From: Candidatus Alcyoniella australis
GTDB lineage: Bacteria > Lernaellota > Lernaellaia > JAVCCG01 > Alcyoniellaceae
Assembly (NCBI GenBank): GCA_030765605.1
Contig: JAVCCG010000035.1
Span: 1 to 63,303, forward strand
Length of the DNA: 63,303 bases
Direction: 5' to 3'
A model generated the notes under the pieces. The model was not told the DNA's origin. It was given only the letters and a program-made list of their open reading frames with translations, and made no database searches. This document shows positions 8,178 through 47,546 of the stretch, one piece after another. Made by a program: the position numbers and the translations under genes. Numbering within the stretch: the stretch's first letter is position 1; each line of letters opens with the position of its first letter.

Positions 8178-10069
8178 GACTGTTTCTGTCCGTTGCGGAT
8201 CAGCCCTTCGAGCTGTGCTACGCGTGCGCGCAGCTCGCTCTCCAGGTTCAAGGCGCGCTGCTTTTCCAGGAAGCCGTCTGAATATGCGCCGAGCACCTCG
8301 CTCAACGTGGCTTCTCCGACCTCGAAGCGGTCGATATTCGACGGGCTGAACGGGTCGATGTCGAGCTGATCGTCGAAAATCTCGATTTGCAATCCGCTGA
8401 GATCAACGTTTTCAACCAGCTCGAGCAAGCGGCTCGGGGATGGGTCGCACGCCCGGGCCAGGGCCGCAATCGACATGACGCAGATCTGTTGAGATGAGAG
8501 CAGGTCCAGGCCCGCAAGATGTGAGCGCCAGAGCATCCGACCGACCTGCTCCGCGTCGCGGACCAGGGTCCGTGCATCGTCCGCGATCACGATCAGCGCC
8601 TCGGGGATCTTGTCGATCAGCTCGCGTGACGTGCGGTACCAGTCGTCGCACGAGCAGATCACCAGGTCGGCCCCCTGCCCTTTAACCACCTGCGGATTAC
8701 GCGACTCGGTGGAGATCAGATAGAGCGTGTTAAGGATCCTGCCCAGCAGCTCACAATCCTGTGCCGACTCCCGGCCGGAGACGCTGAACCCTGTCAGGCC
8801 GATAATCGGCCTGCCGAACAACTCGACCATGCGTCGTACCGTGCGATCCCAACGGAAGTATTCCAGGCCGTGGCGCTCGAAGCTCGGCTCCAGCAGCAGC
8901 CCGTCCCACGGACGACGCAGAAGCTCGAAATTCATCTGCGGGCCGACCAGCCCGCGATCGAGGGCGATTTGCCAGATCTGCGTTCCGGGCATCGGAGCCA
9001 AGATGTTGACGTCGGCCTGGTCGATCTTGCGCTGAAGCATGTTGCGGCTGATAAAGCGATAGGTCGTCAGCACGTCCTCGCGGGTCTCGCCGGGCACTCC
9101 GACGATGAAGCTCAGCCCGGTCTTGATTCCGGCCGCGGACGCGCTGTCAACGCTTTGCTGATTTTGTTCGGGAGTGACGTTGCCCTTGAGGAATTTGAGC
9201 ACAGGTCCGGAGCACGACTCGGCGCCGAAAGTGATGCGCTCAAATCCCATCCGCCTGAGCAAAAGCGCCAGCTGTGGATCGGTCAAGTCGGCGCGCACTG
9301 CGCCGGAAAGCTTCAGCCGGCCGATCAACCCGCGTTCGTCCATCAGTTCGGCGATTTGTTCAAGCCGTTTACGGTCGGCGGTGAACAAATCGTCGTAGAT
9401 GTGCACTTCGGTGGCGCCGTAGTTGTCAGCCAGCCGTTGCAGTTCGTCGACCACCCGCTGCGCGCCGAACGAACGGTAGCCGCCCCAATGCACAGCGGAA
9501 GAGCAGAATGCGCATTTGAACGGACAGCCGCGGCTGGTCATTACGTGTGCCGGACCGCCGGTGTAGCCCAACGCATCGAGGTCCGGCAACGGTACGCTGT
9601 CCAGCGGATCGATCAGCGCGCGTCCGGGAGTCTCTACCAGCTCGCCGTTTTCAAGCCAGGCTAGTCCGTTAATCGAGCGCAGTTCCTCGCGTTGCAGTCG
9701 ACCGCTGTGCCTTAGCGCTGTCAGCAGCTCGAGCAGCGTCCGCTCGCCTTCGCCGATCACCGCCAGGTCGAAAACGGGCAGCAGGCTCTGCGGACATGTC
9801 GAGATATGCACGCCGCCGATGATTAGCGGCACGCCCAGTCTCGAGCGAATCCGCGCCGCGTGGTCCACGGCACGACCGTAGGCTGCCGAGGAGCATGAGA
9901 TTCCGACCACGTCGGGATTCCAGCGGATCAGTCGTTCGACGTCGTCGGTCACCAGCGGCTCGAAGTCCAAATCCGCTGCGCGCAGGTACGACACCAGGTA
10001 GCCCAGGCCCAACGGGTGGTACCACGACAAGTCGCCCGGCTCGCGACTGAGCAACAGCCCGAGCTTCAT
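8174..10069 (-). CDS. B12-binding-domain radical SAM protein (copy 1)
   Basis: About 631 residues. An N-terminal cobalamin-binding Rossmann-like domain (HPLGLGYLVSYLR, VGISCSS, LIIGGVHIS, LAVIGEGE) occupies about 1-140. It is followed by the radical SAM TIM barrel with the cluster motif CPFKCAFC; the three Cys are near 182, 186 and 189 counted from the ATG. A further C-terminal region of about 200 residues is unrecognised. Class B methylases and ring-modifying enzymes have this architecture, so C-methylation or a related radical reaction on a sugar, lipid or polyprenyl substrate is likely. Start is the ATG at 10069 or the GTG at 10072; both touch the stop of the upstream glycosyltransferase. 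It is clearly paralogous to the gene at 16201-18195 (shared AQRV, DDLF and LEQIA motifs), which begins the same block. Confidence 0.9.
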   Translation of the reverse strand: MKLGLLLSREPGDLSWYHPLGLGYLVSYLRAADLDFEPLVTDDVERLIRWNPDVVGISCSSAAYGRAVDHAARIRSRLGVPLIIGGVHISTCPQSLLPVFDLAVIGEGERTLLELLTALRHSGRLQREELRSINGLAWLENGELVETPGRALIDPLDSVPLPDLDALGYTGGPAHVMTSRGCPFKCAFCSSAVHWGGYRSFGAQRVVDELQRLADNYGATEVHIYDDLFTADRKRLEQIAELMDERGLIGRLKLSGAVRADLTDPQLALLLRRMGFERITFGAESCSGPVLKFLKGNVTPEQNQQSVDSASAAGIKTGLSFIVGVPGETREDVLTTYRFISRNMLQRKIDQADVNILAPMPGTQIWQIALDRGLVGPQMNFELLRRPWDGLLLEPSFERHGLEYFRWDRTVRRMVELFGRPIIGLTGFSVSGRESAQDCELLGRILNTLYLISTESRNPQVVKGQGADLVICSCDDWYRTSRELIDKIPEALIVIADDARTLVRDAEQVGRMLWRSHLAGLDLLSSQQICVMSIAALARACDPSPSRLLELVENVDLSGLQIEIFDDQLDIDPFSPSNIDRFEVGEATLSEVLGAYSDGFLEKQRALNLESELRARVAQLEGLIRNGQKQS

Positions 10070-12054
10070 CACTGAGACACCCGCTCGTCAGCATCCTGGA
10101 TGCAAATGCGTTGCACGAGCACTGTCAGTTCCTCGGTGTAGCCATCGTGCAGCACCTCATCGGGGATGAATCCCTCGGAGAAGCGCAGTCCGACCCGCAA
10201 CACGTCGCGATCGAGCAGGTCGTTAGGGATCACTCCGTGAATCCAGTAATTGGCGGTCTGGTCAAGATCGCGGCAGTTGACGTCCCGCCCCTCGACCGTC
10301 AGACAGGCCTGCGTCGTGCGGTCTTGAAAGTACGGAGCGTAGAAGTAGAAGATCGACTGCACGAACGGCTCCCGTTGGTGATGTTTGAGCTTAACCTCGG
10401 CCGAGCGTCCGATCCAGCGCTGATTCTCGATCTCGCGCAGCCATCCGTCGAGCAACTGTTCGCGAGAAAACGCGTCGTCGATAAAATCGACGCAGCTGGA
10501 TAGGCCCGCCCCTTGACGATCACGTTCCAGAGAATAGACCGCGACATCGAAGCGCGGATCGTGGGGGATGTTCTTGATTTCGACCTGCTGGAACATCTGC
10601 TCCGCAGTATTGCGCACAGCGCGCTCGGGATCCCAGATCTGCTCCTGGTACAACACGAGCCACATCCGCTCGAAATACTGCGACAGCTTTTCCAAACGCT
10701 GTTGCACCACCTTCTGCGGAATGTTCGCAGGTTCGGTGAAGTTTCCAAGGATCGGGATTACCGGCACCTCACCGTCGAAATAGTGAAAGAAGGCGATACT
10801 GGAATAGCGGTTGAGCACCACCACGCAATCGCGGCCGCGTTGCGCCTGTTCGCTGATCTCAAACGCCGCATGTCGCCATGCCTCACGCCGATAGTTCGGA
10901 CCATCATAGATATTGAGCGTCGAGCCGAGCAACAGCGCAATTACCGCCGTGGCAAGCAGCGACGCGGCCGGCCGGCTGCGATGCCAAAGCAGGGACAACC
11001 CACCGGCGGCCAGAATCGCGAAGAACGGCATCCAGCACAGAAAGTACTTGGGTCGGAACACCTGCTTGAACGAGGCGAGCAACAGCAAAATGACGATCGG
11101 CAGCAGAACCATCACCGCGATCAGCCCGCGATGGCGCGGATGCCGAAAATCGCGCCAGGCCCCCAGGGCGATCGAAAGCAGCAGCGGAGCGCCCAAAACA
11201 AAGGCGGCCGCTGTATAGCTTTTAACGCCCGGATCAAGATTGACGTAGGGCAGCGTGGCCATGCTCCATTCGCTGCCGCCGAACACGATGAATCCCAGCA
11301 AAATGATCAAGCGTTGAATCAGCGGGAAAGTCTCGCGCTGCTGCTCGAAGCCGGCCTGTAGCATGAACAACGGCAACTGCGGAAGGAACGCCAGCGCGAT
11401 GGCGAGCAGGGCCAGGCCCTGCAGCAACCAGGCGCGTCGACTGCGGAAATAGAGCAACGTCGCCATGGTCTGGCCGAAGATCACCATCGGCATGTAGTAA
11501 TGGGTGTACATCCCCAAGGCCGAGGCCGCGATGTAGACCGCCCATGAGCTTAGCCGCAACGAAACCATCATTCGCAAATAGGCCAGCGAGCTGAGCACCA
11601 CCAGCAGCACAAACAGGCTTTGGTAGCGGTTCTCCTGACTGTAGTAAACGTGCAGCGGCCACAGCGCAAACAGCGCCGTTGACAGCATTCCCACCCGTCG
11701 TCCAAAAAGTTCGCGGCCCAGGAAGTAGATGAAGGGCAATACCGCGATGCCGAACAGCGCGGCAAAGATGCGGATCCAGTAATCCGATTCTATGAACATC
11801 GTCCAGCCGCCGATCACCAGGTAATAAAGCGGCGGGCTGGCGTCGTGTAACTGGAATTGCAACAGCGACATCAGGCGCGACTGGCTGACGTAGATCGTCA
11901 GCGCCTCGTCGGTCCATAACGATTGATAGCCCAGCTTGTAGAGGCGCAACACGGCGCCGACAACAACGATCAACAGTACGCCGACCAGCGTGCCCCGGCT
12001 GTTGTCGAAACCGGATTTCAGCCTTCGCAAAGTCGTGGGGCCGTTCGCTATCAT
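10069..12054 (-). CDS. GT39/ArnT-like membrane glycosyltransferase with C-terminal beta domain (paralog C)
   Basis: A 661-residue polytopic enzyme of the PMT/ArnT (GT-C) superfamily, which transfers a sugar from a polyprenyl-phosphate donor on the outer face of the inner membrane. Visible signatures are the acidic loop-1 motif WTDEALTIYVSQ with the likely catalytic Asp, ASPPLYYLVIGGW, and YSQENRYQS, followed by about ten hydrophobic helices to residue 390. The final 250 residues are soluble and include CVDF, then LLDGWLREIENQRWIGRSAE, a motif repeated in the next two genes. The ATG overlaps the upstream TGA as ATGA. The acceptor and sugar are unknown. Arising with its two neighbours by tandem duplication is inferred from shared order of motifs. 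Confidence 0.86.
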   Translation of the reverse strand: MIANGPTTLRRLKSGFDNSRGTLVGVLLIVVVGAVLRLYKLGYQSLWTDEALTIYVSQSRLMSLLQFQLHDASPPLYYLVIGGWTMFIESDYWIRIFAALFGIAVLPFIYFLGRELFGRRVGMLSTALFALWPLHVYYSQENRYQSLFVLLVVLSSLAYLRMMVSLRLSSWAVYIAASALGMYTHYYMPMVIFGQTMATLLYFRSRRAWLLQGLALLAIALAFLPQLPLFMLQAGFEQQRETFPLIQRLIILLGFIVFGGSEWSMATLPYVNLDPGVKSYTAAAFVLGAPLLLSIALGAWRDFRHPRHRGLIAVMVLLPIVILLLLASFKQVFRPKYFLCWMPFFAILAAGGLSLLWHRSRPAASLLATAVIALLLGSTLNIYDGPNYRREAWRHAAFEISEQAQRGRDCVVVLNRYSSIAFFHYFDGEVPVIPILGNFTEPANIPQKVVQQRLEKLSQYFERMWLVLYQEQIWDPERAVRNTAEQMFQQVEIKNIPHDPRFDVAVYSLERDRQGAGLSSCVDFIDDAFSREQLLDGWLREIENQRWIGRSAEVKLKHHQREPFVQSIFYFYAPYFQDRTTQACLTVEGRDVNCRDLDQTANYWIHGVIPNDLLDRDVLRVGLRFSEGFIPDEVLHDGYTEELTVLVQRICIQDADERVSQ

Positions 12055-14069: not shown

Positions 14070-16204
14070 CGATCCGCCTTTCGCAGAGCCACGTTGCGCA
14101 CCTGCAGCGACTTGACGGAGTAATCGCCTGGAAATCCGACTTCGGCCGGAACGAACCAGCGGTCGGCGTGCAGCGTGACGTCGATCAGCTCGCCCATCGC
14201 GCTCGTATCAACTTCGCCCGACACAGTGTAAATCCCGCTGCTGTCCATCAGCCGCGAGGCCGTCGGCTCCCCGTCGACCAGCAGTTCAAGGCGCAACGGG
14301 CCGTCGAGCAGCTCGCGGGCAATGTAAACCTCGACCTCGATCAACGCTTGACCGGGCGGATCGATATTGCGCAGCCGCAGCTCGGCCTGCGGTCCGATGA
14401 AGCGAAATCCGTTGAGCACCTCGTCGAACCAGCCGTCTGCGAGCTGCAGCATCTCGTGAGGACCGCTGAAGTCGATCTGCGAGCTGAATCCCGCAACCAA
14501 CTGCTGTGGATCGTGCTCAAAGCGCTTGACGCAGAAGCGCCGCAGTCCGTAGCGCTCACAGTGCACTACCTGCGGGACGTACCCGGCCCGCGCCAGGGCG
14601 CGCCCCAGGCGGTCGCGGCCGTCAAGCCCGGGCGGATCATAGAACTCGCCGTGGTAATCGATCAGCCACAGCGCGCCGCCCGACGCGGTCAGCTGCGCTG
14701 CCAGCTGCTCGCAACGCGGGACGTAGACACTGTCGGGCAGGTCCCATTCGTTGTATCCGATCAGCCAGTGCTGTTCGTTATGCCCCTGGTAATAACGATT
14801 GAACGGGATTCCCTTGAGCAGATGGTAGTAGGCGATGAAGTCCTGATCCTCGGCCTGATCCTCGATCAACCGTGCGACGCCGCGCCAATCCTGGCGCGCG
14901 TAGTCCGGATGAAAGTAGTACTCGCGCAAGCTGGCCGCAGTGGTCAGGCCCAGATAGGCCGCCAGGCAGACGCACAGCACGCGGGTTGCGCCCCCCTTAC
15001 GCCAGAGTCCGACCAGCGCCACCGAGATCAGCAGCAGGGCCAGCGGTAAATAGGGAGCTGCGTAGCGCGCCTCGTAAACGTGCATGGCCAATGCTGCGCC
15101 GATAATGCCCAAGGTCGGCACTGCGCCCAGCAATAGGATCGATCCCACGCGCTGACGTTCGGGACGCAGCAGCAGCACTCCGAGCGCCACCAGTCCCCAG
15201 ATCGGCAGCATCACCAGCGCGGCGATCAACGCGTAGCCATGGAAATCCGAATCAATCAGCGAACGCAGTGGTTCGATCAGCCCGAAAGTGCGATCAGGAG
15301 TGGGCGTTAGCATTAGTTGCGAGGCGATGTTGAATATCCCGCGCAGCGTGGGCAGCGGCGTGAGCCACGGCGTGCCCTTGAGGATTTGCATTGAGAACAT
15401 CTTGGCCCAGGGTAAAAACGCCAGGCCGATCAGCGCCACGGCCAGCAGTGCCAGTCCGGCGGCGCGGATTGATCGCCGTAGGGCGGAAATCCAGGCGTTG
15501 GCCGCGGAGAGGCCGAAGGCCTTGGGAGCCGCAAGCTGTGAGGATTGGGCAATGCCGAGCAGTGTTGCGGCCGATGAGGCTCCCCTGCCCGCTGCGCGCG
15601 AAACCACATAGCCTTGGGCAAGTGCGATCAGTGCAAATGAGGCCACTGCCAGCCAGGCGAAATAGTGGGTGTAAATCGCGGCTGTGCCGCACAACACCAG
15701 TGCGGCGAAAGAACTCCAACGCGGACGATGCAACAGACCGACAAACGCAATCTGGGCCGCCAGCACCAGTGCGATCACCAGCGCGTTGTAGCGGACTTCC
15801 TGGCTTAAGAAGATCAGCATCGGGCTGCAGGCGACGAGCAATGCCGTGACCAGCGCCTCGGCCCTGCCCGCCAGACGCAGGGTCAGCAGGTAACTTAGAT
15901 AGACCGTCAGGCTGCCCAGCAGCACCGAGAACAGGCGCAAGCCGAAATCCGAGACCAGCCCCAGCGCCATCCAGCCCTTGAGCAGCGTATAGCTGAGCAT
16001 CGGGTTGGAATCGATCAGCGCCATGCGTTGCCAGATTACGTCGAGTCTTTGCGAGGCGACGATCACTTGGCTGATCTCGTCGTCCCACATCGATTGGCGG
16101 GTCAGCGCAAACAGCCGTAGACCAACGGCGAGGGCTATTATCCCGGCCAGGGACCAGGCGGCGCGCCGCCCTGTTCGTTCAGCGCCCGCGGGCTCGCCTC
16201 TCAT
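14066..16204 (-). CDS. GT39/ArnT-like membrane glycosyltransferase with C-terminal beta domain (paralog A)
   Basis: A 712-residue member of the same trio. Signatures: MWDDEISQVIVASQ in loop 1 (acidic pair shifted to DDE), DSNPMLSYTLLKGWM and LSQEVRYNAL. The membrane region extends to about residue 430 and contains an Ala/Gly/Ser-rich cytoplasmic insert around residues 200-240 that the other two lack. The C-terminal domain has QIDFSGPHEMLQLADGW, FIGPQAELRL and a late SLQVRNVAL strand. It begins with an ATG overlapping the radical SAM stop (ATGA at 16201-16204). Being the first transferase in the block, it may act first, but that is only inference from gene order. Confidence 0.86.
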   Translation of the reverse strand: MRGEPAGAERTGRRAAWSLAGIIALAVGLRLFALTRQSMWDDEISQVIVASQRLDVIWQRMALIDSNPMLSYTLLKGWMALGLVSDFGLRLFSVLLGSLTVYLSYLLTLRLAGRAEALVTALLVACSPMLIFLSQEVRYNALVIALVLAAQIAFVGLLHRPRWSSFAALVLCGTAAIYTHYFAWLAVASFALIALAQGYVVSRAAGRGASSAATLLGIAQSSQLAAPKAFGLSAANAWISALRRSIRAAGLALLAVALIGLAFLPWAKMFSMQILKGTPWLTPLPTLRGIFNIASQLMLTPTPDRTFGLIEPLRSLIDSDFHGYALIAALVMLPIWGLVALGVLLLRPERQRVGSILLLGAVPTLGIIGAALAMHVYEARYAAPYLPLALLLISVALVGLWRKGGATRVLCVCLAAYLGLTTAASLREYYFHPDYARQDWRGVARLIEDQAEDQDFIAYYHLLKGIPFNRYYQGHNEQHWLIGYNEWDLPDSVYVPRCEQLAAQLTASGGALWLIDYHGEFYDPPGLDGRDRLGRALARAGYVPQVVHCERYGLRRFCVKRFEHDPQQLVAGFSSQIDFSGPHEMLQLADGWFDEVLNGFRFIGPQAELRLRNIDPPGQALIEVEVYIARELLDGPLRLELLVDGEPTASRLMDSSGIYTVSGEVDTSAMGELIDVTLHADRWFVPAEVGFPGDYSVKSLQVRNVALRKADR

Positions 16205-18195
16205 TTGCGACCGCGTTTGCTCCGCGCCTCGGCCTCACGTTGGGCCAGGGTCTGTTCGTCGTCGATCATTCGTTGCTCGATGATCCGGTGCCTGCGTTCG
16301 CGCTTGTCTCCGTGCATGCGATCGAGCTTCCAATTGTTGCTCAGGATTCCGGCCAATACGCCGCGCGCCGGGCTGAAGCTCAGCCAGGGGTCGGTCTCGG
16401 GCCGGAAGATGCTGAGGCGGAAGTGCTTGCGTTGCAGGATGTCGCGAATATCGGGGAACGGTTCGCCGGGTACGGTCTGTTCGAAGTAAGCTTGGCGGTT
16501 GACCATCAGCGCGCGCTCCGAGAATACAAGCAGGTTGCGCGCGAATGCATTTTCGGGCATGAAATGCGCTGTGGGCGCGTGGGTCGTGTAGTCCGCATCC
16601 TCGAGGAAGTGGTGCCAGATGATGCTCTTGAGCCGCTCGGGATCAAAGTCGGCCGTCGCCTTGAAGTAGGCGGTGAGCGTCTTTTTCCACCCATCGCGTG
16701 GAATGCGATGCAGGTGTTTGCGGCCGACCTGCTGAACGTGCAAAGGCTCGAGCGCATCGCAGATCTCGGGCGTTGGATCGTAGAGCCCGAAATCAACCGC
16801 GATCAGCTTGTCGAAGAAACCGGTGGCCAGGCATTGCTGGGCCCACTGCTTTGCGAGCTGCGGCCCGTCGGCGTTGCCCGCCAAGTCGGTCACGTCGAGC
16901 AGTCCGACGATCATCATCTCGTTGAGCTTCATCATCCGCTGGCCCAGCCGCGTCAGATCGTCGAAAAAGTAGAAGTTGGTCTTGGGTAGCTTGCGCCCCA
17001 TGTAGAACCGCTCCCATGGGTAGCGCAGTTGCTCGAAATCCATCTGCTCGGACACCAGGCCCCGCTCCAGAGCTTGGTCCCAGATCTTGGTGCCGGGAAA
17101 CGGCGTCAGAGTGTGCATCTCAAAGTAATCGATCTTGCGATCGCGCAGGTTGCGCAGGATGAATTCATAGGTGGTGAACAGATCCTCCGTGCTCTCATCG
17201 GGTGCGCCCTTAATAAAGCTGGGGCCGACCTTGATTTGATAATCGAAGCACAGGTCGAGGGCTTGCTGATTCATCTCGGCGGTGACCGAATCGCCCTTGA
17301 GGTAGCGCAGCACCGGGTCGGAACACGATTCCGCACCGAACGTCACGCGCTTGATGTTCATTCGTTTGAGCTGTTCCAGAGCCTCTCGATCGACGAGGTT
17401 CGCGCGGATCGTACACGAGAACGAGATCTCTTTGTGCCAACCGTGCTGCACGATACCATCGGCGATCTGCTCCAGACGTTGTTTGCGCGCGATGAACAGG
17501 TCGTCAAAAAAGTGGATCTCTTTGCAGTCGTAGCGCTCGACCAGCAGCTCGATTTCCTCGATCACCCGCTGTGCCGAATGCGCCCGATACTTGCCCCAAA
17601 ACGCCTGTGACGAGCAAAAGGAGCAGTCGTAGGGACAGCCGCGGCTGGTGAACATATAGGCCGGCTCGCCCTTGTACCCGACCAACGAACGATCGGGCAT
17701 CGGCAGATCGTCAAGCGATTCGACCAGCGGCCTGCGCTGGTTCACGCATACACCGCCGTCTTCGTCGTGATAGCAGATGCCCTTGACGTCTTTGAGCATC
17801 TCGGGGTCCAGCGCTTTCCACTGCACCAGTTGCAGCAGCTCGACCGCTGTCAACTCACCCTCTCCCAGTACTCCGATCTGGAACTCCTCGGGCAGAGTGT
17901 GCGGCATTACCGTGATATGCACACCGCCGATCCAGACCGGCACACCTAAGCGTTCCTTGATTTGGACGGCCATGCTGCGCGCCAGACCGAAGTTGATCGA
18001 GCCCGAGCTGATCCAGACCAGGTCCGGCGCCAGCGAGATGACCTGCTCCAGGCTGTCGGCCACCTGCAGGCGCACTCCATCGAGCTCGCGATGAATGTAG
18101 GCGCCCAGCGAGGCGAAACACAGCGGCCGGAAGGTCGTATAGTCCTGTTCGCCGATCGCCATCAGGCCGCAGATTCGCAAGGGTGATTTGCTCAT
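16201..18195 (-). CDS. B12-binding-domain radical SAM protein (copy 2)
   Basis: A 664-residue protein with an N-terminal cobalamin-binding domain (CFASLGAYIH, VWISSGSINFGLA, VWIGGVHITV, IGVLGEGE). The radical SAM domain has the cluster motif CPYDCSFC (Cys187, Cys191, Cys194) and a DDLF strand. The C-terminal third is about 220 residues with no motif known to me, ending in a basic tail. It is the promoter-proximal gene of the 5898-18195 block. Copy 1 at the other end shares its layout, so the three glycosyltransferases are bracketed by two related radical enzymes. Activity should need S-adenosylmethionine, a 4Fe-4S cluster and probably cobalamin. The substrate is unknown. Confidence 0.9.
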   Translation of the reverse strand: MSKSPLRICGLMAIGEQDYTTFRPLCFASLGAYIHRELDGVRLQVADSLEQVISLAPDLVWISSGSINFGLARSMAVQIKERLGVPVWIGGVHITVMPHTLPEEFQIGVLGEGELTAVELLQLVQWKALDPEMLKDVKGICYHDEDGGVCVNQRRPLVESLDDLPMPDRSLVGYKGEPAYMFTSRGCPYDCSFCSSQAFWGKYRAHSAQRVIEEIELLVERYDCKEIHFFDDLFIARKQRLEQIADGIVQHGWHKEISFSCTIRANLVDREALEQLKRMNIKRVTFGAESCSDPVLRYLKGDSVTAEMNQQALDLCFDYQIKVGPSFIKGAPDESTEDLFTTYEFILRNLRDRKIDYFEMHTLTPFPGTKIWDQALERGLVSEQMDFEQLRYPWERFYMGRKLPKTNFYFFDDLTRLGQRMMKLNEMMIVGLLDVTDLAGNADGPQLAKQWAQQCLATGFFDKLIAVDFGLYDPTPEICDALEPLHVQQVGRKHLHRIPRDGWKKTLTAYFKATADFDPERLKSIIWHHFLEDADYTTHAPTAHFMPENAFARNLLVFSERALMVNRQAYFEQTVPGEPFPDIRDILQRKHFRLSIFRPETDPWLSFSPARGVLAGILSNNWKLDRMHGDKRERRHRIIEQRMIDDEQTLAQREAEARSKRGRK

Positions 18196-37824: not shown

Positions 37825-39753
37825 CTAAAACGATGACTGCAGCGTGAGAAACACGCTGCGTCCGGGCAACGGCAGTCCGCGCACGTCGACCATCCGATCA
37901 TCGGATAGGTTTTTAACCTCGGCGCCAATGCGGAAGTGTTCGCCCGCGCGCACGATCAATCCGGCGTTGAGCACCTGGCGCGGTTCGAGCAGCTTGGTGT
38001 TGGCTCGGGTAACATAATTGCCGCTGATAAATCGGTACTCGGCGAACAGCGTGCACGGCTCGATCAGCAGTTCAACCTTTCCCGCTGCCTTGTGTCGCGG
38101 CCGTCCCGGAATCTGATTGCCGCGGCGGTTGGGTTCGTCCGTGTCGTCGATGGCATCGGTGTAGGTGTATGCCGCGGAGAGCGCCAGGCAGTCCACCGGC
38201 CGCAGGGCCGCCCTGCCCTCGTACCCGCTGATGATCGCCCGACCGATGTTGAACGGCTTGTAGCGAAAACCCGAGAGCAGCAGGTACTCGATCAGATCGT
38301 CGATCTCCGAGCGGAAGTAGACCGCCTCGGCGTTGAAAATCCGAGTGTTGAACTGCACCCCGCCGTCCATGCTCCAGGCGCGTTCTGGCTTGAGCTGCGG
38401 GTTGCCGACCACGAAACCCTGATTGAAATACAGCTCGTAGAAATTCGGCGCGCGAAAACTGCGCCCGGCGTTGGCCTTGATCGTCAACCACGACAACGGC
38501 TTGAGCGCCATGCCGAGCTTGGGCGACCATTGGTCGCCCGCTTCGCTGGCCGAGTCGTAGCGCACGGCAGGCACCACGGTCAGCAGCTCGCCCCAGAGCA
38601 TGATCTGATCGCGCAAGGCAGCTGACCAGGTTGTTCGCTGTGGGTCGTCGAACTGCTCGTCGCGCAAAATATCCAGGCGGTATTGTCCGCTGAGCAGCCA
38701 AATCTGGTGCGCGCCCCAAACGTATTGCAGGGCCTGCCTGACCTCGGGCGCGTACTGCCGTTGGTGCGAGTCGATGGCAACACCAGTGCCCTCGCCCGCC
38801 TGATCGCCATAGCTCTGGTCGGCAAAGATCAGCGAGCCGCCGCTGGTGAGAGTCAGGCCGGGCAGCACTTCGGCCAGCGCCGACTTGACGGTCAGCATTT
38901 CGCGCAGCTGCTCGGAATAGGCGTGAGGCGTGGGAAAGGTCACCAGACCGGGCATGCCGCGCCGCGAGCTGACCAACTCGTTTTGCACTGAAACGTCCAG
39001 CATCTTGGTCGCTGCGAATCCGGCCTTAATCAACAGCCCGCGGCTGTCAAACCCGTTGTTGCGGCGCACGTCCCTGCGATCGTCCGAGTCGTCAAGCTCA
39101 GTGCCGTTGTTGCTGACAAATGGAAACGCGCCCGACGAGTGCAAATAGCCGATCGAGGCCAGATAGCTCCATTTCTTGAGCTGCGCGCTACGCGCCGCTG
39201 ACAGTCGCAACGTATCGAACGAGCCGTAGCTGACGCCTAAAGTATTGGCCTCGCCCGTACCGGCCTTGCGCGTGACGATGTTGACCACGCCGCCCACAGC
39301 GCCCTCGCCGTAGAGCGCGGACTCGCCGCCGCGCAGCACCTCGATGCGTTGGATGTGTTCGGCCGGGATCGAGCTGAAGTCCACTCCGCCGCCGCTGGCC
39401 GGGTTGACCCGCACGCCGTCGATCAAGACTACGACTTGGTCCGCGCTGGTCCCCCGGATCGAGATCGTCGAGAGCTGGCCCAGGCCGCCGAAGTCGCGCA
39501 TGTGAACGCCCACGGCCGAGGAGAGCATCTCCTCGGTGGTCGCCATGCGACCGGCATAGCTCTTGGCATCGATCACCTGCACGAACGCCGGAGGATCCTC
39601 CACCGATTCGTTGAGCGCCTCGGCGCTGACAACCAGCTCGGGCAGCGTGTAGCCTGGCGGCTGTTCGTCCGCATCCTCTTCAGCGCGCAGCGGCGCACAG
39701 ACCAGCAACACGGCCCACAGCGCCGCTGCAAGTATCAGCTCTCTTTGTCTCAA
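37825..39753 (-). CDS. TonB-dependent outer-membrane receptor, BtuB-like (cobalamin)
   Basis: A 642-residue receptor. Signal peptide 1-24, a TonB-box-like ELVVSAEAL near 39-47, plug domain about 50-165 (FVQVIDAKSYAGRM, STISIRGTSADQVVVLIDGV, ALYGEGAVGGVVNIVTRKA) and a 22-strand-type barrel ending in FLTLQSSF with terminal Phe, as expected for BAM recognition. It starts with TTG (39753-39751), overlapping the previous stop as TTGA; no ATG preserves the signal peptide. It is the last gene of an operon headed by a cobalamin riboswitch, so cobalamin or a corrinoid is the probable cargo. By size and plug sequence it is close to BtuB. Confidence 0.9.
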   Translation of the reverse strand: MRQRELILAAALWAVLLVCAPLRAEEDADEQPPGYTLPELVVSAEALNESVEDPPAFVQVIDAKSYAGRMATTEEMLSSAVGVHMRDFGGLGQLSTISIRGTSADQVVVLIDGVRVNPASGGGVDFSSIPAEHIQRIEVLRGGESALYGEGAVGGVVNIVTRKAGTGEANTLGVSYGSFDTLRLSAARSAQLKKWSYLASIGYLHSSGAFPFVSNNGTELDDSDDRRDVRRNNGFDSRGLLIKAGFAATKMLDVSVQNELVSSRRGMPGLVTFPTPHAYSEQLREMLTVKSALAEVLPGLTLTSGGSLIFADQSYGDQAGEGTGVAIDSHQRQYAPEVRQALQYVWGAHQIWLLSGQYRLDILRDEQFDDPQRTTWSAALRDQIMLWGELLTVVPAVRYDSASEAGDQWSPKLGMALKPLSWLTIKANAGRSFRAPNFYELYFNQGFVVGNPQLKPERAWSMDGGVQFNTRIFNAEAVYFRSEIDDLIEYLLLSGFRYKPFNIGRAIISGYEGRAALRPVDCLALSAAYTYTDAIDDTDEPNRRGNQIPGRPRHKAAGKVELLIEPCTLFAEYRFISGNYVTRANTKLLEPRQVLNAGLIVRAGEHFRIGAEVKNLSDDRMVDVRGLPLPGRSVFLTLQSSF

Positions 39754-40904
39754 TCGATTACCGTCAGGGTGTCCGGTCCGTCGTTGACCACAAAACTCTC
39801 GACCTTCTCGCCGCTAAGCGGATCGATGGCGAACAGCCGGTCGTGGTTGAATTCCGTGACCCACAGCAGACCGTCGGGCGACAGGGTCAGGCCGCTGATC
39901 ATGCTCAAGCCCAGAGGATCGTCCTGGTCGCGTAAATCGACTTGATACACTTGTTCGCCGCTCTCCAGGTCGATTGCCGTGAGCACGCCGTTGCGTGCAT
40001 TGCCCAACCAACCCAGCCCCTGCTCGTCGATCAACATCTCGATCGGCGCGCCGTTGACCTCAAAGTCGCGCACCAGCTCGAGGGTCTGCGGATCGATCGC
40101 CTCAACGCGGCCGTTGCCAACGAAACCGTCCTGTTGATCGTAGTCGCCCGCGCTGACCGCCCACAGCAATCCGCGCTGCAAATCCTCGACCAGTCCGACC
40201 GTATCGCTTCCCGTGAGGGTCAGATCCGCAGTCTGGTTGCGCTCAGCGCGATCGATGACGATCACCACTCCCGGCCCGTTGGCTGTGAAATCGCCGTCAA
40301 GGTTGGGCAGCGCCACGAACACCCGCTGGTCGACAACGAGCAGGCCGCTGTGACGAGCCCAGCCCTCGTCGCCGGGCAGCTGAAATTCCTCGGGTAGCGC
40401 GATGCGCGCCAGCTCGCGATCTTCAGCATTGATCCCGGTCGACAGGTCGTAGAGCGATACGTCCTGTTCCATGAAGTTGGCGATCCAGGCCAGACCCTGC
40501 GAATCGAAGTCCATTGCTATCGGGTTGCTGCCCGATCCGACCGATATCTCACGCTGTACTTGCAGCTCGCCCTGGTCGTAGACCACCACCGAGTTGGACA
40601 GCGAGCACAGCGCGTACAGTTCGCCGCTGTGCAGCAGCGTCTGCGTGATCGATTGGCCCGTGGCGCGAACGTCGTCGAGCAGCACGTACTCTCCAGGGCC
40701 CTCGACCTTGAGCACCGAGAGCGTCTCGCTCAGACCGCCGCCGATTACCAAGGCGTACGGATAGGGCGCATCGTCATCGTCGTTCAGGTCAATCGGCTGA
40801 TCTTCATCGACCGCAGGATCCTCGCAGCCCGCTAAAACCAAAATCAGCATGCAGCAAAGCAGCGATGTTAATACCTTCGAAAGTTCGTTCTGTCGACGGG
40901 ACAT
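39750..40904 (-). CDS. Beta-propeller surface lipoprotein of the B12 operon (BtuG-like role)
   Basis: About 384 residues from the ATG at 40904 (a TTG two codons earlier is possible). The lipobox is VLAGC, followed by a short acidic spacer (DLNDDDD). The rest is built from repeated four-stranded blades of the YncE/NHL type: IAMDFDSQGLAWIANF, PIEMLIDEQGLGWLGNARNG, SGLTLSPDGLLWVTEFNHD. In Bacteroidetes the propeller lipoprotein BtuG captures cobalamin on the surface and caps BtuB. The propeller fold, lipid anchor, riboswitch control and adjacency to a BtuB-like receptor suggest the same job here; no sequence identity with BtuG is claimed. It ends overlapping the receptor start. Confidence 0.8.
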   Translation of the reverse strand: MSRRQNELSKVLTSLLCCMLILVLAGCEDPAVDEDQPIDLNDDDDAPYPYALVIGGGLSETLSVLKVEGPGEYVLLDDVRATGQSITQTLLHSGELYALCSLSNSVVVYDQGELQVQREISVGSGSNPIAMDFDSQGLAWIANFMEQDVSLYDLSTGINAEDRELARIALPEEFQLPGDEGWARHSGLLVVDQRVFVALPNLDGDFTANGPGVVIVIDRAERNQTADLTLTGSDTVGLVEDLQRGLLWAVSAGDYDQQDGFVGNGRVEAIDPQTLELVRDFEVNGAPIEMLIDEQGLGWLGNARNGVLTAIDLESGEQVYQVDLRDQDDPLGLSMISGLTLSPDGLLWVTEFNHDRLFAIDPLSGEKVESFVVNDGPDTLTVID

Positions 40905-40906
40905 TT

Positions 40907-41809
40907 TCAACTACCGCAAGCCGCGTTATCGCTGCCCACGGCGGACTGATGATCGAGGTCATCGTCATCAGCGGAATCGTCGTCGTCAGCAACTTGGTCG
41001 TCATCTTCGTCATCGTCCGAGTCATCGTCGCTAGAGTCGTCGTCATCCGCAGCCGTACTGCCGTGCAAATATCCGATTGCCTCCAGATCGGTTCCGCCCG
41101 AGCCGTACGTGGGATACACGTCAAAGATCGGATTGTCCTGCGCATAACCCAACCGCGTTGCCGTATCGCTGTAATCGCCCGAGCCCGGAACGTCGACGAT
41201 CCGCACGAAGTTGATCCGCTGCAGGTCCACCTCACCGGAGAGCACCAGCGCGTCGCTCTGCAGATCCTCCAGGTCGAACCCCGTGCCCTCGGAAACGTCG
41301 TAGGCGTTGGCGTGTCGTCCGGCAAGGTTGAAGACATCGGTCGGATCGATCAGCCCGTAGGCGCCCACCGGCCCGTCGATCAGCGAGACGCAGGGGAAGC
41401 GCGCGAAGCTCTCGCCATCGGTGGAGACCTCGACGTACGACAGCTCGGCGAACAACAGACCGTCCGAGGTAAATCCGTTCTCAAAGACGACGATATCCGC
41501 TCCCTCGCCGTTGCTGATCAACCCATCGAAGGTCAGGGTGATCTCGCCGGGAGGCTCCGTGGATCCCTGCGCGCGTTCCCCAAGGGAGACGATGTCGATG
41601 TGCTTGCCCGTGGCCGGGCCCAGCGCCTTTTCCGGGTGTTGCCAGGCCAGGTCAACGCCATCGGCAGGCAGGTAGTCCAGGTATCCGCTGGCCCAACCGA
41701 GGATATGCGGATCGTCTTTATCGATGCCGGTTTGGTCGAACGGTCCCGCCGCAGAGACGATCGGGATCAACAACAACACAAGAATTGTAACTAGGCTTCC
41801 CGCACGCAT
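40907..41809 (-). CDS. Secreted cell-surface protein of the B12 operon, Asp-rich tail and terminal CGS
   Basis: From the ATG at 41809 (AGGAAA upstream), 300 residues: Sec signal peptide MRAGSLVTILVLLLIPIVSA, a beta-rich domain of about 230 residues (ALGPATG, GEITLTFDG, GADIVVFENGF, ELSYVEVSTDGESFARFP, INFVRIVDV), then an Asp/Ser tail of about 40 residues ending NAACGS. I recall proteins with the VFENGF and VEVSTDG motifs beside TonB receptors and YncE-type lipoproteins in B12-regulated loci. It is the first gene after the riboswitch. The terminal CG-X parallels two other secreted proteins here. A corrinoid-binding or receptor-assembly role is inference. Confidence 0.8.
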   Translation of the reverse strand: MRAGSLVTILVLLLIPIVSAAGPFDQTGIDKDDPHILGWASGYLDYLPADGVDLAWQHPEKALGPATGKHIDIVSLGERAQGSTEPPGEITLTFDGLISNGEGADIVVFENGFTSDGLLFAELSYVEVSTDGESFARFPCVSLIDGPVGAYGLIDPTDVFNLAGRHANAYDVSEGTGFDLEDLQSDALVLSGEVDLQRINFVRIVDVPGSGDYSDTATRLGYAQDNPIFDVYPTYGSGGTDLEAIGYLHGSTAADDDDSSDDDSDDDEDDDQVADDDDSADDDDLDHQSAVGSDNAACGS

Positions 41810-41921
41810 ATCGGTTTCCTTTCGCGCGTGCGAGACCGAGAGCGGAACGAAGGCTTTTTGTTTGATCTTGCTTGGCCGACGATCCACAACCGATCTCTTG
41901 TTCCTCGAGGATCATGGTTGT

Positions 41922-42071
41922 GCGGTGCGGCCAGGTTTCCTGGCTCTGGAGTCAAGCGCCCTGTCCCGCCTTCCCAGCGCCCTTGCGCCAGTGGCTTTCG
42001 GAACAGTGCATCCCCCATCACAGTGGCGGGTCCGCGCCGGTCTTTCACCGGCTTCCCTCGAACCGCACCGC
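41922..42071 (-). ncRNA. Cobalamin riboswitch
   Basis: Minus strand, about 150 bases. P1 is closed by a perfect 9-bp pairing, GCGGTGCGG (42071-42063) with CCGCACCGC (41930-41922). Inside are the conserved elements in order: GGGAAGCCGGTGAAAGACCG, then CGGACCCGCCACTGTGA, then a second GGGAAGG helix region, then the B12 box GAGCCAGGAAACCTGGC (41946-41930). This is the class-I AdoCbl-type core. The following 110 bases up to the ATG at 41809 hold a possible hairpin (ACAACC with GGTTGT) and a CCTTCG segment that could pair with CGAAAGG at the ribosome-binding site; no U-tract terminator is present, so control is probably at translation. The 85-codon frame across this RNA is not a gene. Confidence 0.95.
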
Positions 42072-42084
42072 ATAAGTTGTATCT

Positions 42085-42112
42085 AGTCTATAACGACGCT
42101 ACCTGAAGTCAA
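42085..42112 (-). promoter_or_regulatory. Promoter of the cobalamin-uptake operon
   Basis: Minus-strand TTGACT (42112-42107) and TAGACT (42090-42085) with a 16-base spacer. The predicted start near 42078 is a few bases before P1 of the riboswitch. Confidence 0.6.
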
Positions 42113-42121
42113 GCCGCCGGA

Positions 42122-43642
42122 TCAGCAGCCGCAGCCGTCAGCATCGTCGTCATCGTCATCGCCGCTCTGATCGTCGTCGTCCGACGAGTCGTCGTCATCG
42201 TCGTCGCCGGAACCCTCGAGCACTTCGAGCTGCTGCACCAGCTGAGCAGTCTGTTCGTCGGAATCGGTCACGATCAGCGCCACACTGTAGGTGCCTGGCT
42301 CGTTGTAGATATGTTCGGGTATGACCCCCTCACCCGCAGTCCCGTCGCCGAATTGCCAGGAGTAGTTGGCCAGCTCATCACAGGGATCAAAGCTATCCGA
42401 GCCGTCGAAGCGCACTGTCTGGCCCGTAGTCGCAGGCAGCGGATCGATGGTGAATGCCGCCGTGGGCTTGCCGATGCCGGGTTTAAAAATTTCATATGTT
42501 TCCCAGGTGACCTCCGTGGCGCCGATCATCGTGAACCGTGCGCGGTCGAAGTCCACCTCGACCAGCAACACGTGCATCATCCCCAGGAACTTATCGGTGA
42601 ACCAGGCCATCCCGCCGATCGGGTTGACAAAGGCGCCGGCGCCGCCGGAAACGAAGTAGACCGTGCCCTCGCTCTGCTCCACCTGATGGTCGTTGTAGAT
42701 CGGCACGGTGCGCTCGTACATGTGATCGTGAGATCCGAAGGCCGCGTCAATGTGGTACTGGTCGAACAGCGGAACGAGGTACTGCTGCACCTCGGGTTCC
42801 GAGCCGTGGGTCGTGCCCGAGGAGTATGCCGGACGGTGGAAGAAGGCGAATTTCCACAGTGCGTCACTGCCGCCGAGCTGATCGTGCATCCAGGACTGCT
42901 GAGTGAGGTATTGCGCTGCGCCGTGCTCAGTGTCCAGCGCCAGGAACAGCGCGTTGCCGTAGCGTAAGCTGTAGAAATCCTCGGTCGCGGTGCGGTCGTT
43001 GATTGGCAGGGCGTACTGGGGCAGATACTTCGATCCGCCGCGGTCCTCGTGGTTGCCCCATACCGGCATCAGCGGGCAGTACGCCATATCGCCCGGATCG
43101 AAGAAATCATCCCAGCCGTCCTGATTGTCTCCCTCTTTGATTGCGTCGCCGTTGAACAGCATGAAGTCCGGCGATTGGTCGGTGGCCACGTCGAGCAGCG
43201 TGGGCCACCAGATCGATACGCCATCGCCCACTGTCGAACGACTGTCGCCCAAAAGCACGAAGCTGTAGGATTGACACACGTCGTCCGGAAGTGGTGCGGT
43301 AACGATATTCTCAATGCCGCTGCTGTGACCTGCTCCGTCGCCCACGCGCACCTGATAGACCGTGTTCGGCTCGAGCCCCGTGGCCTCGGCCACGTGCAGA
43401 ATTCCGTGCCCTCCTGAATACGAATAACTATAACCCTCCACAGAGTCGGCCAGCTCGCCAATACCGTATTCCAGAACACTGCCTGTAACGCTCACATCGG
43501 TGCGCCACACAGCGGTGATGGAGGTTGACGGATCTTGCTGCCAGGAGAAATGCAGTTGATCCGGGTTCGACGACGGTCCTGCCAACACGGCCATTGGAAC
43601 CAAGCATATTGCACAGGCAGCCAGAAATCGTACGATTCGCAT
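42122..43642 (-). CDS. Secreted metallophosphatase with PKD domain, Asp-rich tail and terminal CGC
   Basis: About 506 residues from the ATG at 43642, which has GGAG 7 bases upstream. Signal peptide about 1-22 (ending AVLAG), purple-acid-phosphatase-like N-terminal domain (LHFSWQQDPSTSITAVWRTD, GLEPNTVYQVRV), and a calcineurin-type phosphoesterase with LLGDSRST, NGDAIKEG, WGNHEDRGG, FFHRPAY and GSHDHMYERT. A PKD domain follows at about 400-475 (FDGSDSFDPC, YSWQFGDG). The last 30 residues are Asp-rich, ending DADGCGC. The signal lacks a lipobox, so the terminal Cys motif rather than N-terminal lipid is the candidate anchor. Paralogous in plan to the lipoprotein at 31126, with the acidic spacer at the opposite end. 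Divergent from the 43788 gene. Confidence 0.86.
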   Translation of the reverse strand: MRIVRFLAACAICLVPMAVLAGPSSNPDQLHFSWQQDPSTSITAVWRTDVSVTGSVLEYGIGELADSVEGYSYSYSGGHGILHVAEATGLEPNTVYQVRVGDGAGHSSGIENIVTAPLPDDVCQSYSFVLLGDSRSTVGDGVSIWWPTLLDVATDQSPDFMLFNGDAIKEGDNQDGWDDFFDPGDMAYCPLMPVWGNHEDRGGSKYLPQYALPINDRTATEDFYSLRYGNALFLALDTEHGAAQYLTQQSWMHDQLGGSDALWKFAFFHRPAYSSGTTHGSEPEVQQYLVPLFDQYHIDAAFGSHDHMYERTVPIYNDHQVEQSEGTVYFVSGGAGAFVNPIGGMAWFTDKFLGMMHVLLVEVDFDRARFTMIGATEVTWETYEIFKPGIGKPTAAFTIDPLPATTGQTVRFDGSDSFDPCDELANYSWQFGDGTAGEGVIPEHIYNEPGTYSVALIVTDSDEQTAQLVQQLEVLEGSGDDDDDDSSDDDDQSGDDDDDDADGCGC

Positions 43643-43787
43643 TTTCATTCTCCGTGGAGGCCGATTTTTAACTATCCAATTGTGGAACACCTATGCCCTG
43701 ATTGCAAAGCGTTCTGCTCACAACCGATTGTCATCGCTTGAGCGTAAGATTTGTGAAACACGGCGTTCAATTGTTAAGATCCAGTCG

Positions 43788-44996: not shown

Positions 44997-47468
44997 CTAA
45001 CGGTAGCTGATCTCCACTTCCACCGAGTCGCCGGCTGCCAGGTCAAAGGGAACCGTTACCCGGTTGACGCCCCAGCGTTCGAAGAGCTCATACCCCGCGA
45101 GATCATGCTCCACTCCGTCGATCCATAGTCCGGCGATTGCGCCGATTACAGAAATTGCCAGCTCGATCTCGAGCGCCACTCCATTAGAACCCACCACTAC
45201 GCTGCGCGCGCCGCCGCTGTCGCTTACCTCTACGTCGAGCCCGCCCTGGCCGTAGGTCAGGCCGCTAACGTCGGCGTGATCCCATTGGCGGGGCAGATGG
45301 ATCGTCAGCGCGGCGCGGCCGTGCGGAGCGTCGGGGCGATAGCCAAATAGGTAGTCCAGCAGCGCGTCGCCGTAAATTCCGCCCTCCCACGGTCGATAGC
45401 GCGAGGTCAGGTCGCAGACAAGGCCGAAGGGCTCCCAGAGGTAGGCGAAACGACCGTAATCGTCGGCTACCTGGGCCTCGCCGGTATTGCCCGTTGATCC
45501 GAACACGTCCAGCGAGGATAGGAATAGTTGCTCGGCACGCGGGTGGTCGATGGCGCTCAGTCCGCTGAGCACGTAGCCCTGGGACATCCCGGAGAAGATC
45601 CCGCTACGGATTCCCATCAGGTCCATCAGCAAGGTGTACATCGGATCGGTATAGCTGATCACCGTCCCGTCGCTACGGCCGAACCAGTCGGTCAAGGTCA
45701 GCAGCGACTCGATCGCCCGCTCGTCATCGGGTGCGGCGTATCCGGTCCACAGCGGCTTGGTCGCCACATCCTCGTAGGGCTGTGGCCAGGGCTCGAGCGT
45801 ATTGACGTCAACGATCGAGGCGTAATAGCCACCGTGGGGGTCATCGACCCAGTAGTGCTCCTCAGCTCCCTGTCGCACTCGCTGAGCCATCAGCTCGAAC
45901 TGCTCGGCGTCGGCCTCGTATCCCAGCTCGCGGGCCACTTCGGCGGCAAACAACGCCGCGGGCACATAGAGAAACGACGAGTTGGAACTCAGATGCGTCT
46001 CGTACATCGAGTCGCCGAACCACATCCCGTAGGCCGCCTGCATCAACAGCCGGTAGGTCTCGTCGTCGGAAAACGGCAGCAGCCAATCGTCGCGAAAATC
46101 CTGATGCAGCAGGCAATGCTTTAATAGCCCATAGCGCTCGGCCAAAGGCGTGAAGTCGCCGGTGGCGCGGTACAGCTCGCGGTATTGCAACACGATGTAG
46201 CTTGGCGTCTCTGCTCCGGTTCGTCCGTGCATCGTGCTCATCGCATCCCAATCGGGCTGTGCGGGCAGCTCGGAGATGTCGAGGTCCAAGGCCATCGAGT
46301 TGGAGATATTGCCGCGCAACAGTGCGGCTGCCCAGTAGTAATCGAGCATCGCGGCCACATCCTCGGAGCGGCCGATGGGCGTGAAGAAAACCGTGGGGCC
46401 CATGATGTCTCTGATCCAGGTGCCGCCGTACTCGCTCATCACCGCACTCGCGCCTTGTGCTGTCTGCTGGGCGCGGATCGTCACTTGCAGGCCCTCGATC
46501 AGATCGTCGAAACGCTGATTATTTGTGTTGACCTGCGCCCCCTGATCGGACCAGGCGTACCAGGCGTCGCGGGTCGATTCCAGCAGGCTTTCAGCGCCCA
46601 ACGATTGGACCACGTTGAGGATCGGTTCCGGACTCTGGTCTCCATTGACAAAGGCTAGCACCACCGGAACAGCGGCCTCTTCTCCGGGTCCCAGATCTTG
46701 TACGGGCAACACCAGGCTCTGATCTTCGAACCAACCCTGACGCCCGGGGTGCGCCACGTAGATGCTCTCGTCGCCGTTTTCCTCGTGCAGCATTACGCCG
46801 TCGGGCGATCCGAACACCGTCCCGATCTTAAGGCGCACATCGCGCACGATTTGCGAGCCCGGATTATGCACCACGCAGATGCGCACGATGGCGTCGATCG
46901 GCAGGGACTTTTCCGCCTCTGCGCCCTCAACCAGCGGAGCGAAATCGACCGTCCATAGGTCCAGCGGTCCGGCAACCGAGCGTGTGATGTTGATCGCCGT
47001 GCGCCTCACGCGCCAGGCGCTCTGGTCCTCGTAGGCCAACGGAATTCCGTAAGCGTGCAGGCTCAGCGACTTGTCGGAGAACCAGTGCACGTCTTTGTGG
47101 TAATCCGGTCCGCTGATGTTATGCAGACTGTTCAGCGGGAGATTGGTGCTCAGCAGTGAAAAGGTATGACCGTTGCCCAGACCAAGCTCGCCGATATTGC
47201 GCAGCAGCGGCGGATTGTCCGCCTCGACCTGCATGCTCCAAAGTGAGCGATCCTGCAACCAGGGTCGATCACGGAAGAAGCGCGGAAGGATGTCAGCGTC
47301 CGCGGTCGAAGCTTCGCCGGGAGACTCGAAGTCGTCGTCGCCATCGTCGTCAACTTGGTCGTCATCGTCGTCACCATCCGAGCCGTTGCCGCAGGCGAAC
47401 AACAACACGGCACACAGCGTCAAGAGCAGCACGATCGCCGACAGCTTGTAAGGCGATGAATATTGCAC
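44997..47468 (-). CDS. Glycoside-hydrolase-like lipoprotein with (alpha/alpha)6-type domain
   Basis: About 823 residues from a GTG at 47468, with AGGGGG suitably placed upstream; the TTG at 47519 would add 17 polar residues. Lipobox LFAC is followed by GNGSDG and an Asp tract. The next 300 residues are beta-rich (supersandwich-like). The middle and C-terminal part resembles an (alpha/alpha)6 barrel: YGGTWIRDIMGPTVFF, TPSYIVLQYRELYRATGDF, GYYASIVDV, YGRFAYLWEPFGLVCDL, RPWEGGIYGDALLDYLFG, then a C-terminal beta domain (ALTIHLPRQWDHA, GVALEIELAISV). This plan fits GH15/GH63/GH65-like enzymes. Catalytic acids cannot be assigned safely. Expected at the cell surface, degrading polysaccharide. Confidence 0.78.
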   Translation of the reverse strand: MQYSSPYKLSAIVLLLTLCAVLLFACGNGSDGDDDDDQVDDDGDDDFESPGEASTADADILPRFFRDRPWLQDRSLWSMQVEADNPPLLRNIGELGLGNGHTFSLLSTNLPLNSLHNISGPDYHKDVHWFSDKSLSLHAYGIPLAYEDQSAWRVRRTAINITRSVAGPLDLWTVDFAPLVEGAEAEKSLPIDAIVRICVVHNPGSQIVRDVRLKIGTVFGSPDGVMLHEENGDESIYVAHPGRQGWFEDQSLVLPVQDLGPGEEAAVPVVLAFVNGDQSPEPILNVVQSLGAESLLESTRDAWYAWSDQGAQVNTNNQRFDDLIEGLQVTIRAQQTAQGASAVMSEYGGTWIRDIMGPTVFFTPIGRSEDVAAMLDYYWAAALLRGNISNSMALDLDISELPAQPDWDAMSTMHGRTGAETPSYIVLQYRELYRATGDFTPLAERYGLLKHCLLHQDFRDDWLLPFSDDETYRLLMQAAYGMWFGDSMYETHLSSNSSFLYVPAALFAAEVARELGYEADAEQFELMAQRVRQGAEEHYWVDDPHGGYYASIVDVNTLEPWPQPYEDVATKPLWTGYAAPDDERAIESLLTLTDWFGRSDGTVISYTDPMYTLLMDLMGIRSGIFSGMSQGYVLSGLSAIDHPRAEQLFLSSLDVFGSTGNTGEAQVADDYGRFAYLWEPFGLVCDLTSRYRPWEGGIYGDALLDYLFGYRPDAPHGRAALTIHLPRQWDHADVSGLTYGQGGLDVEVSDSGGARSVVVGSNGVALEIELAISVIGAIAGLWIDGVEHDLAGYELFERWGVNRVTVPFDLAAGDSVEVEISYR

Positions 47469-47517
47469 TGTAGACCGCCCCCTGTTTCGTCGATTATTGC
47501 AGGACAGTATACAGCAC

Positions 47518-47546
47518 AAAGGCCCGCCACGAGATCACGGCAGGCC
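47518..47546 (-). terminator. Terminator after the 47570 gene
   Basis: Minus-strand GGCCTGCC pairs with GGCGGGCC (8 bp, one T-G), with a 10-base loop, followed by a short TTT. It separates the 47570 gene from the glycosidase-like gene. Confidence 0.5.

Follow-up and report, generated by a model that had tools for sequence, protein, structure and literature searches.

An operon of BtuH-, BtuG- and BtuB-like genes behind a cobalamin riboswitch, for likely cobamide capture outside Bacteroidota

Does a bacterium outside Bacteroidota capture cobamides at its surface in the way that Bacteroides does with BtuH, BtuG and BtuB? This question is raised by a three-gene locus at positions 37825–42112 of contig JAVCCG010000035.1 of Candidatus Alcyoniella australis (assembly GCA_030765605.1); the whole 63,303-nt stretch analysed is referred to as the window, and coordinates are positions in it. 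The first-pass annotation of the window had described this locus as a B12 riboswitch followed by the genes of a secreted surface protein (here SURF), a BtuG-like propeller lipoprotein (PROP) and a BtuB-like TonB-dependent receptor (TBDR), with a surface-capture logic previously described for Bacteroides. The extent of the operon, the riboswitch, the nature of the propeller and of the receptor, and the capture logic outside Bacteroidota were all borne out by the analysis. It is very likely that the operon serves cobamide capture and outer-membrane import of the Bacteroides BtuH–BtuG–BtuB kind in a B12-importing bacterium.

Riboswitch and operon layout

The cobalamin riboswitch aptamer, located at 41913–42081 on the minus strand, matched the covariance model RF00174 over its full length (model positions 1–189) with 103.3 bits (E 9.3e-25; gathering score 31.5 bits), while a covariance model built from the riboswitches of related loci, this one included, placed it at 41913–42101. 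Three genes follow 3′ of the aptamer on the same strand, namely SURF (40907–41887, 326 aa), PROP (39750–40910, 386 aa) and TBDR (37825–39753, 642 aa), and adjacent genes share 4-nt TTGA overlaps. Just 5′ of the aptamer lies a promoter-like pair (−35 TTGACT / −10 TAGACT, 42085–42112, minus strand) that matches 9 of 12 consensus bases; one such pair was found where 1.2 were expected by chance, so that it is weak by itself, but its position fits.

SURF probably starts at ATG 41809 rather than at GTG 41887, with the Shine-Dalgarno sequence AAAGGAAACC and the signal peptide MRAGSLVTILVLLLIPIVSAAG. In the minimum-energy fold, a predicted hairpin (GCACGC...GCGUGC, 41802–41831, minus strand) encloses both the AAAGGAA Shine-Dalgarno and the start codon AUG of SURF, and could be a translational expression platform. 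The fold stability of the region 3′ of the aptamer was not above that of shuffles (z −1.1), and in the relatives L017–L019 the Shine-Dalgarno sequence lies in or beside short complementary arms near the aptamer. Since no minus-strand terminator was found between the aptamer and SURF, translational control is preferred, and a transcription-termination platform is disfavoured.

A second cobalamin riboswitch of the genome (L016:9777–9900, G000:C20) precedes a gene whose lipoprotein product (L016:8217–9665, minus strand) combines Big_2 and propeller domains, and similar pairs of riboswitch and propeller lipoprotein occur in the relatives L023, L027, L154 and L155.

Receptor, propeller and the SURF domain

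TBDR carries a TonB-box-like LPELVVSA, a Plug domain and a TonB-dependent barrel. Its top NCBIfam model was that of the B12 receptor (TIGR01779, 209.7 bits), and its top solved structures were E. coli BtuB and Bacteroides BtuB1. In a maximum-likelihood tree, TBDR grouped with 14 riboswitch-module receptors of other phyla (support 97/99), apart from FepA, CirA, FhuA, FecA and the other TonB-dependent receptors of the same genome, a grouping limited as a test of siderophore vs. B12 receptors by the choice of the module receptors for their match to TBDR. The reading of TBDR as a siderophore or sugar receptor was dropped after this tree. As the E. coli and the Bacteroidota BtuB group elsewhere, the latter as a third group, the tree does not show descent of TBDR from either. 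TBDR is a BtuB-like receptor by model and structure, and a close ortholog was found in 7/7 genomes of the class searched. In the FR_14 relative, the receptor gene lies in two overlapping frames (L027:4804–6724, G005:C2), reflecting a frameshift or an assembly error.

PROP, encoded beside the BtuB homolog under the cobalamin riboswitch, consists of a lipobox (LAGC), an acidic linker and a beta-propeller. Its AlphaFold2 model (pLDDT 89.8) was compared by Foldseek with 350,542 PDB chains, and ranks 1–14 were all taken by Bacteroides BtuG1, BtuG2, BtuG3 or orthologs (TM ~0.73/0.79), nearly all of them cobalamin-bound structures, while an S-layer protein followed at rank 15 and YncE at rank 44. A profile of the module-linked propellers recovered every Bacteroides BtuG structure, with values of 1e-17 to 1e-20, compared with 7.6e-12 for YncE, although an archaeal S-layer propeller outscored BtuG in this search. 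The PROP family also matched BtuG in hhalign (92.8%, 4e-7). PF16819 (DUF5074), the label borne by Bacteroidota BtuG relatives, had no match in the window's genome or in its class. By the profile, Foldseek and hhalign evidence, PROP is a BtuG-like propeller lipoprotein.

SURF has an ordinary Sec-type signal at its N-terminus, a conserved domain (41048–41746) and an acidic C-terminal tail with ACGS as the last residues. SURF matched no Pfam family and no PDB sequence. Direct PDB searches with the single sequence or with SURF-family profiles returned no BtuH, and therefore the link to BtuH rests on structure and profile comparison. With the predicted SURF model as query, Foldseek gave a single PDB match below 1e-3, chain 8blw_B (BtuG1; E 3e-6), and the matching BtuG1 fragment was verified as the BtuH domain through its match to 7BIZ. 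Comparison of the SURF profile with that of BtuH proteins, for which references from Bacteroidota plasmids were used, gave 97%, E 1.2e-10 and 35% identity over 81 columns. In this alignment, Asn399 of BtuH2, a phosphate contact, corresponds to the Asn of the VFEN motif that is invariant in the SURF family (63/63), and Phe401, a lower-ligand contact, to a Phe retained in 89% of the family; Gln333 was not placed. With the BtuG1 fragment as query, no match was obtained in 290 relatives' genomes or in viral contigs. SURF is a divergent BtuH-type domain, and the first-pass description of the accessory proteins as different from those of Bacteroides does not stand.

The SURF domain has no Pfam model, and an assignment to DUF4465 was considered and dropped; neither SURF nor its 63 relatives matched the DUF4465 model of Pfam. 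The sole named relative is the Leptospira 'adhesin' LIC_13355, whose NCBIfam model NF033170 was matched by all 63 aligned relatives (best 3e-20), with SURF itself reaching 14 bits, far under the curated cut-off of 120. These matches, together with the laminin and plasminogen binding reported for LIC_13355 (PMC11891782), would suit an adhesin or host-interaction lipoprotein that is co-regulated by chance. However, SURF is homologous to a crystallised B12-binding domain, its riboswitch-linked relatives belong to environmental Myxococcota, Sumerlaeota and others, and its domain is fused to a propeller in two loci (described below), making an adhesin role extremely unlikely.

Secreted proteins ending in an acidic run and (G/A)CGC-stop, or a near form, were seen class-wide, and in the window at 42122–43690 and 40907–41887 (both minus strand). 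In three relatives the corresponding DNA pattern occurred dozens of times, and in the window's genome five times, nested matches counted, compared with 0 in a reversed-pattern control; it may represent a hitherto undescribed C-terminal signal for sorting or anchoring. Near the operon, both in the window (44997–47519, minus strand) and in a relative (L017:3907–6588), there are also genes of large lipoproteins that have an acidic linker and weak similarity to six-hairpin glycosidases or melibiase.

Distribution, probable cobamide import and proposed mechanism

A scan of GTDB genomes yielded 398 SURF relatives, and the 80 best of these were retained for locus counts. They came from Myxococcota, Sumerlaeota/BRC1, CSSED10-310, Fermentibacteria, KSB1, Electryoneota, Binatota and Planctomycetia, as well as from a genome related to the window's class that was deposited under the name Deltaproteobacteria FR_14. 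A cobalamin riboswitch lay 5′ on the same strand in 61/80 loci, always within 5.8 kb, as detected with the riboswitch model. Given the base rate of 88 RF00174 matches in ~307 Mb (50 of the relatives' genomes), only ~0.1 of 80 loci would be expected to have one within 10 kb upstream by chance. A TonB-dependent receptor was present in 33 of these loci, a propeller in 23, some by weak matches, and both in 19. The propeller and the BtuH-like domain form a single protein in L077 (8957–10876, KSB1) and L085 (8624–10555, a deltaproteobacterial metagenome-assembled genome), and the L077 protein aligned in register with the BtuH domain of BtuG1, with an alignment score near zero. Further genes accompany the family: the L023 operon runs on into BtuF, CobU and CobT homologs, a periplasmic binding protein and CobU surround the SURF relative in L022 and L030, and FecCD permeases occur at other loci.

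Related modules thus occur in at least eight phyla other than Bacteroidota, and the system is not a one-off but widespread. BtuG was reported as exclusive to Bacteroidetes (PMC6143338), and searches of the open-access literature turned up no paper that describes BtuG or BtuH from these phyla. A cobamide-capture strategy of this kind appears far more widespread than reported. We lean, with some confidence, towards a broader view in which BtuH–BtuG–BtuB capture is common to at least eight further phyla and the SURF domain represents a large family that binds cobamides outside the cell and has the nucleotide-loop Asn as its signature. BtuG-like and BtuH-like proteins, a BtuB-like receptor and a riboswitch are now placed together in many uncultured and predatory lineages; this suggests a likely function for hundreds of 'hypothetical' secreted proteins, and predicts how B12 auxotrophs compete for cobamides in soils, sediments and fens.

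Several results weigh against assigning the operon to cobamide capture. Searched by phmmer as a single sequence, PROP gave no BtuG at E ≤ 1 but only generic propellers, and it had no PF16819 match at E ≤ 0.1; TBDR lies far under the equivalog cut-off of TIGR01779 (599.7 bits), and E. coli BtuB, an experimentally known B12 receptor, falls among siderophore receptors in the tree. The SURF model is only moderate (pLDDT 76), with a TM of 0.46 and a high rmsd to the BtuG1 chain, its match to BtuH spans only ~81 columns, and the corrin-ring contacts His476, Tyr510, Trp511 and Trp577 of BtuH2 could not be placed in it. Further, 19 of the 80 loci had no riboswitch match, although the gene is close to a contig end in at least four of them, and the receptor is away from the other two genes in three relatives. 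The weakness of the single-sequence searches, and the fact that propellers and discoidin-like sandwiches are widely found folds, would also suit an ordinary btuB operon with two unrelated surface proteins whose likeness to BtuG and BtuH is of a generic propeller and jelly-roll kind. However, such likeness hardly accounts for BtuG occupying the first 14 Foldseek ranks, for a chain with a BtuH domain as the one significant structural match of SURF, supported by the profile comparison, for fusions repeating the layout of BtuG1, or for the recurrence of the gene trio on a Bacteroidota plasmid, and we consider this explanation very unlikely.

The genome itself, which is 98% complete, bears on the need for cobamides. 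CbiC, a hallmark of corrin synthesis that is required by both corrin pathways, was absent from 7/7 genomes of the class, and no CobU above the cut-off was found in the window's genome. One strong BtuC-type permease is encoded there, in a BtuFCD-type operon unlinked to the locus (contig C85), and the BtuF of this operon shares 34% identity with the riboswitch-linked BtuF of L023. Because CbiC is absent and one BtuFCD-type importer is present, the organism most likely imports cobamides. The window encodes two radical SAM proteins that each carry a B12-binding domain (8174–10072 and 16201–18195, both minus strand), and as the genome lacks CbiC, it is plausible that the operon supplies their cofactor, as had been proposed, although nothing ties these genes to the operon. 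Both radical SAM genes are clustered with those of membrane mannosyltransferase-like proteins.

The absence of CbiC also bears on the ligand. The riboswitch could be real while SURF and PROP handle something other than intact cobamides, such as corrinoid precursors in free form, cobalt, or a different metal chelate needed only at low B12: cobalamin riboswitches control cobalt transporters too, fold likeness to BtuG is no proof of ligand, and the corrin contacts of BtuH2 were not placed in SURF. However, the combination of a BtuB-like receptor with domains of the BtuG and BtuH types suggests corrinoids, the SURF family co-occurs with BtuF, CobU and CobT homologs, and cobalt alone would be of no help to a genome without CbiC. 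Corrinoid precursors would in turn be a subset of the cobamide-capture reading, as BtuG2 binds cobinamide too (PMC10404256). A ligand other than intact cobamides is unlikely.

From the aptamer, the gene order, the folds and family relations, the recurring linkage and the absence of CbiC, we infer the following course for cobamide capture. At low intracellular levels of adenosylcobalamin or another cobamide, the aptamer would be empty and the operon expressed. The secreted BtuH-like SURF, probably held at the surface through its acidic cysteine-containing tail, would catch cobamides, while the lipidated PROP would hold the corrin above the cavity at its centre and form a lid on TBDR, as in BtuB2G2. 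TBDR would then import the cobamide using TonB energy, and the unlinked BtuFCD-type ABC importer would carry it into the cytoplasm. Rising cobamide would close the riboswitch and shut the operon, probably by hiding the ribosome-binding site of SURF.

Comparison with known systems

The closest described arrangements are BtuB2G2 and BtuB1G1 of Bacteroides thetaiotaomicron, in which a cobalamin riboswitch, a TonB-dependent B12 receptor and a surface propeller lipoprotein are likewise combined in one operon (PMC6143338, PMC10404256). The operon of the window differs from them in its host outside Bacteroidota and in the ~15% identity of PROP to BtuG, and PROP has an N-terminal acidic linker where Bacteroides BtuG has the Bacteroidetes lipoprotein export signal. 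Receptors from Myxococcota, CSSED10-310 and Binatota are nearer to TBDR than Bacteroides BtuB is.

For SURF, the comparison is with BtuH, whose B12-binding domain was reported to show no more than low structural homology to known structures; BtuH2 binds B12 (PMC8941943). SURF and BtuH (BtuH2, PDB 7BIZ; BtuG1 domain, 8BLW) have a common core, SLGxGGxI..F..I.NG.G.DF.VF.N.F..E..V.VS.D, and both are secreted and encoded beside a propeller and BtuB. In contrast to BtuH, SURF is shorter and stands alone without PKD repeats, its corrin-ring contacts are not recognisable, and it has an acidic cysteine-containing tail where BtuH has an N-terminal lipid. In BtuG1 of Bacteroides, the propeller is followed at the C-terminus by a BtuH domain (PMC10404256), and the fused proteins of L077 and L085 repeat this combination.

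Two other families resemble SURF. LIC_13355 of Leptospira (NF033170) is related to the SURF domain and was studied solely for its binding of laminin and plasminogen, in a paper that does not mention B12 binding (PMC11891782). BtuJ/DUF4465 is, like SURF, a jelly-roll type surface protein under riboswitch control, binds B12 and occurs in several phyla (PMC12751083, PMC13398666), but SURF had no such Pfam match and no such structural match among the matches listed, and by eye lacks the NTPAY motif.

Persicobacter plasmids carry BtuH-type genes as well. On that of Persicobacter sp. JZB09 (L187:3944–11219), two cobalamin riboswitches accompany a tandem of three secreted proteins that resemble one another at the N-terminus; a BtuH domain is present in one of them or more. 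Plasmid pPP3 of Persicobacter psychrovividus (L186), also of Bacteroidota, combines a riboswitch of the same class with a stand-alone BtuH, a TonB-dependent receptor and a DUF5074 propeller, that is, the same three kinds of genes as in the window, in the order BtuH–receptor–propeller vs. BtuH–propeller–receptor.

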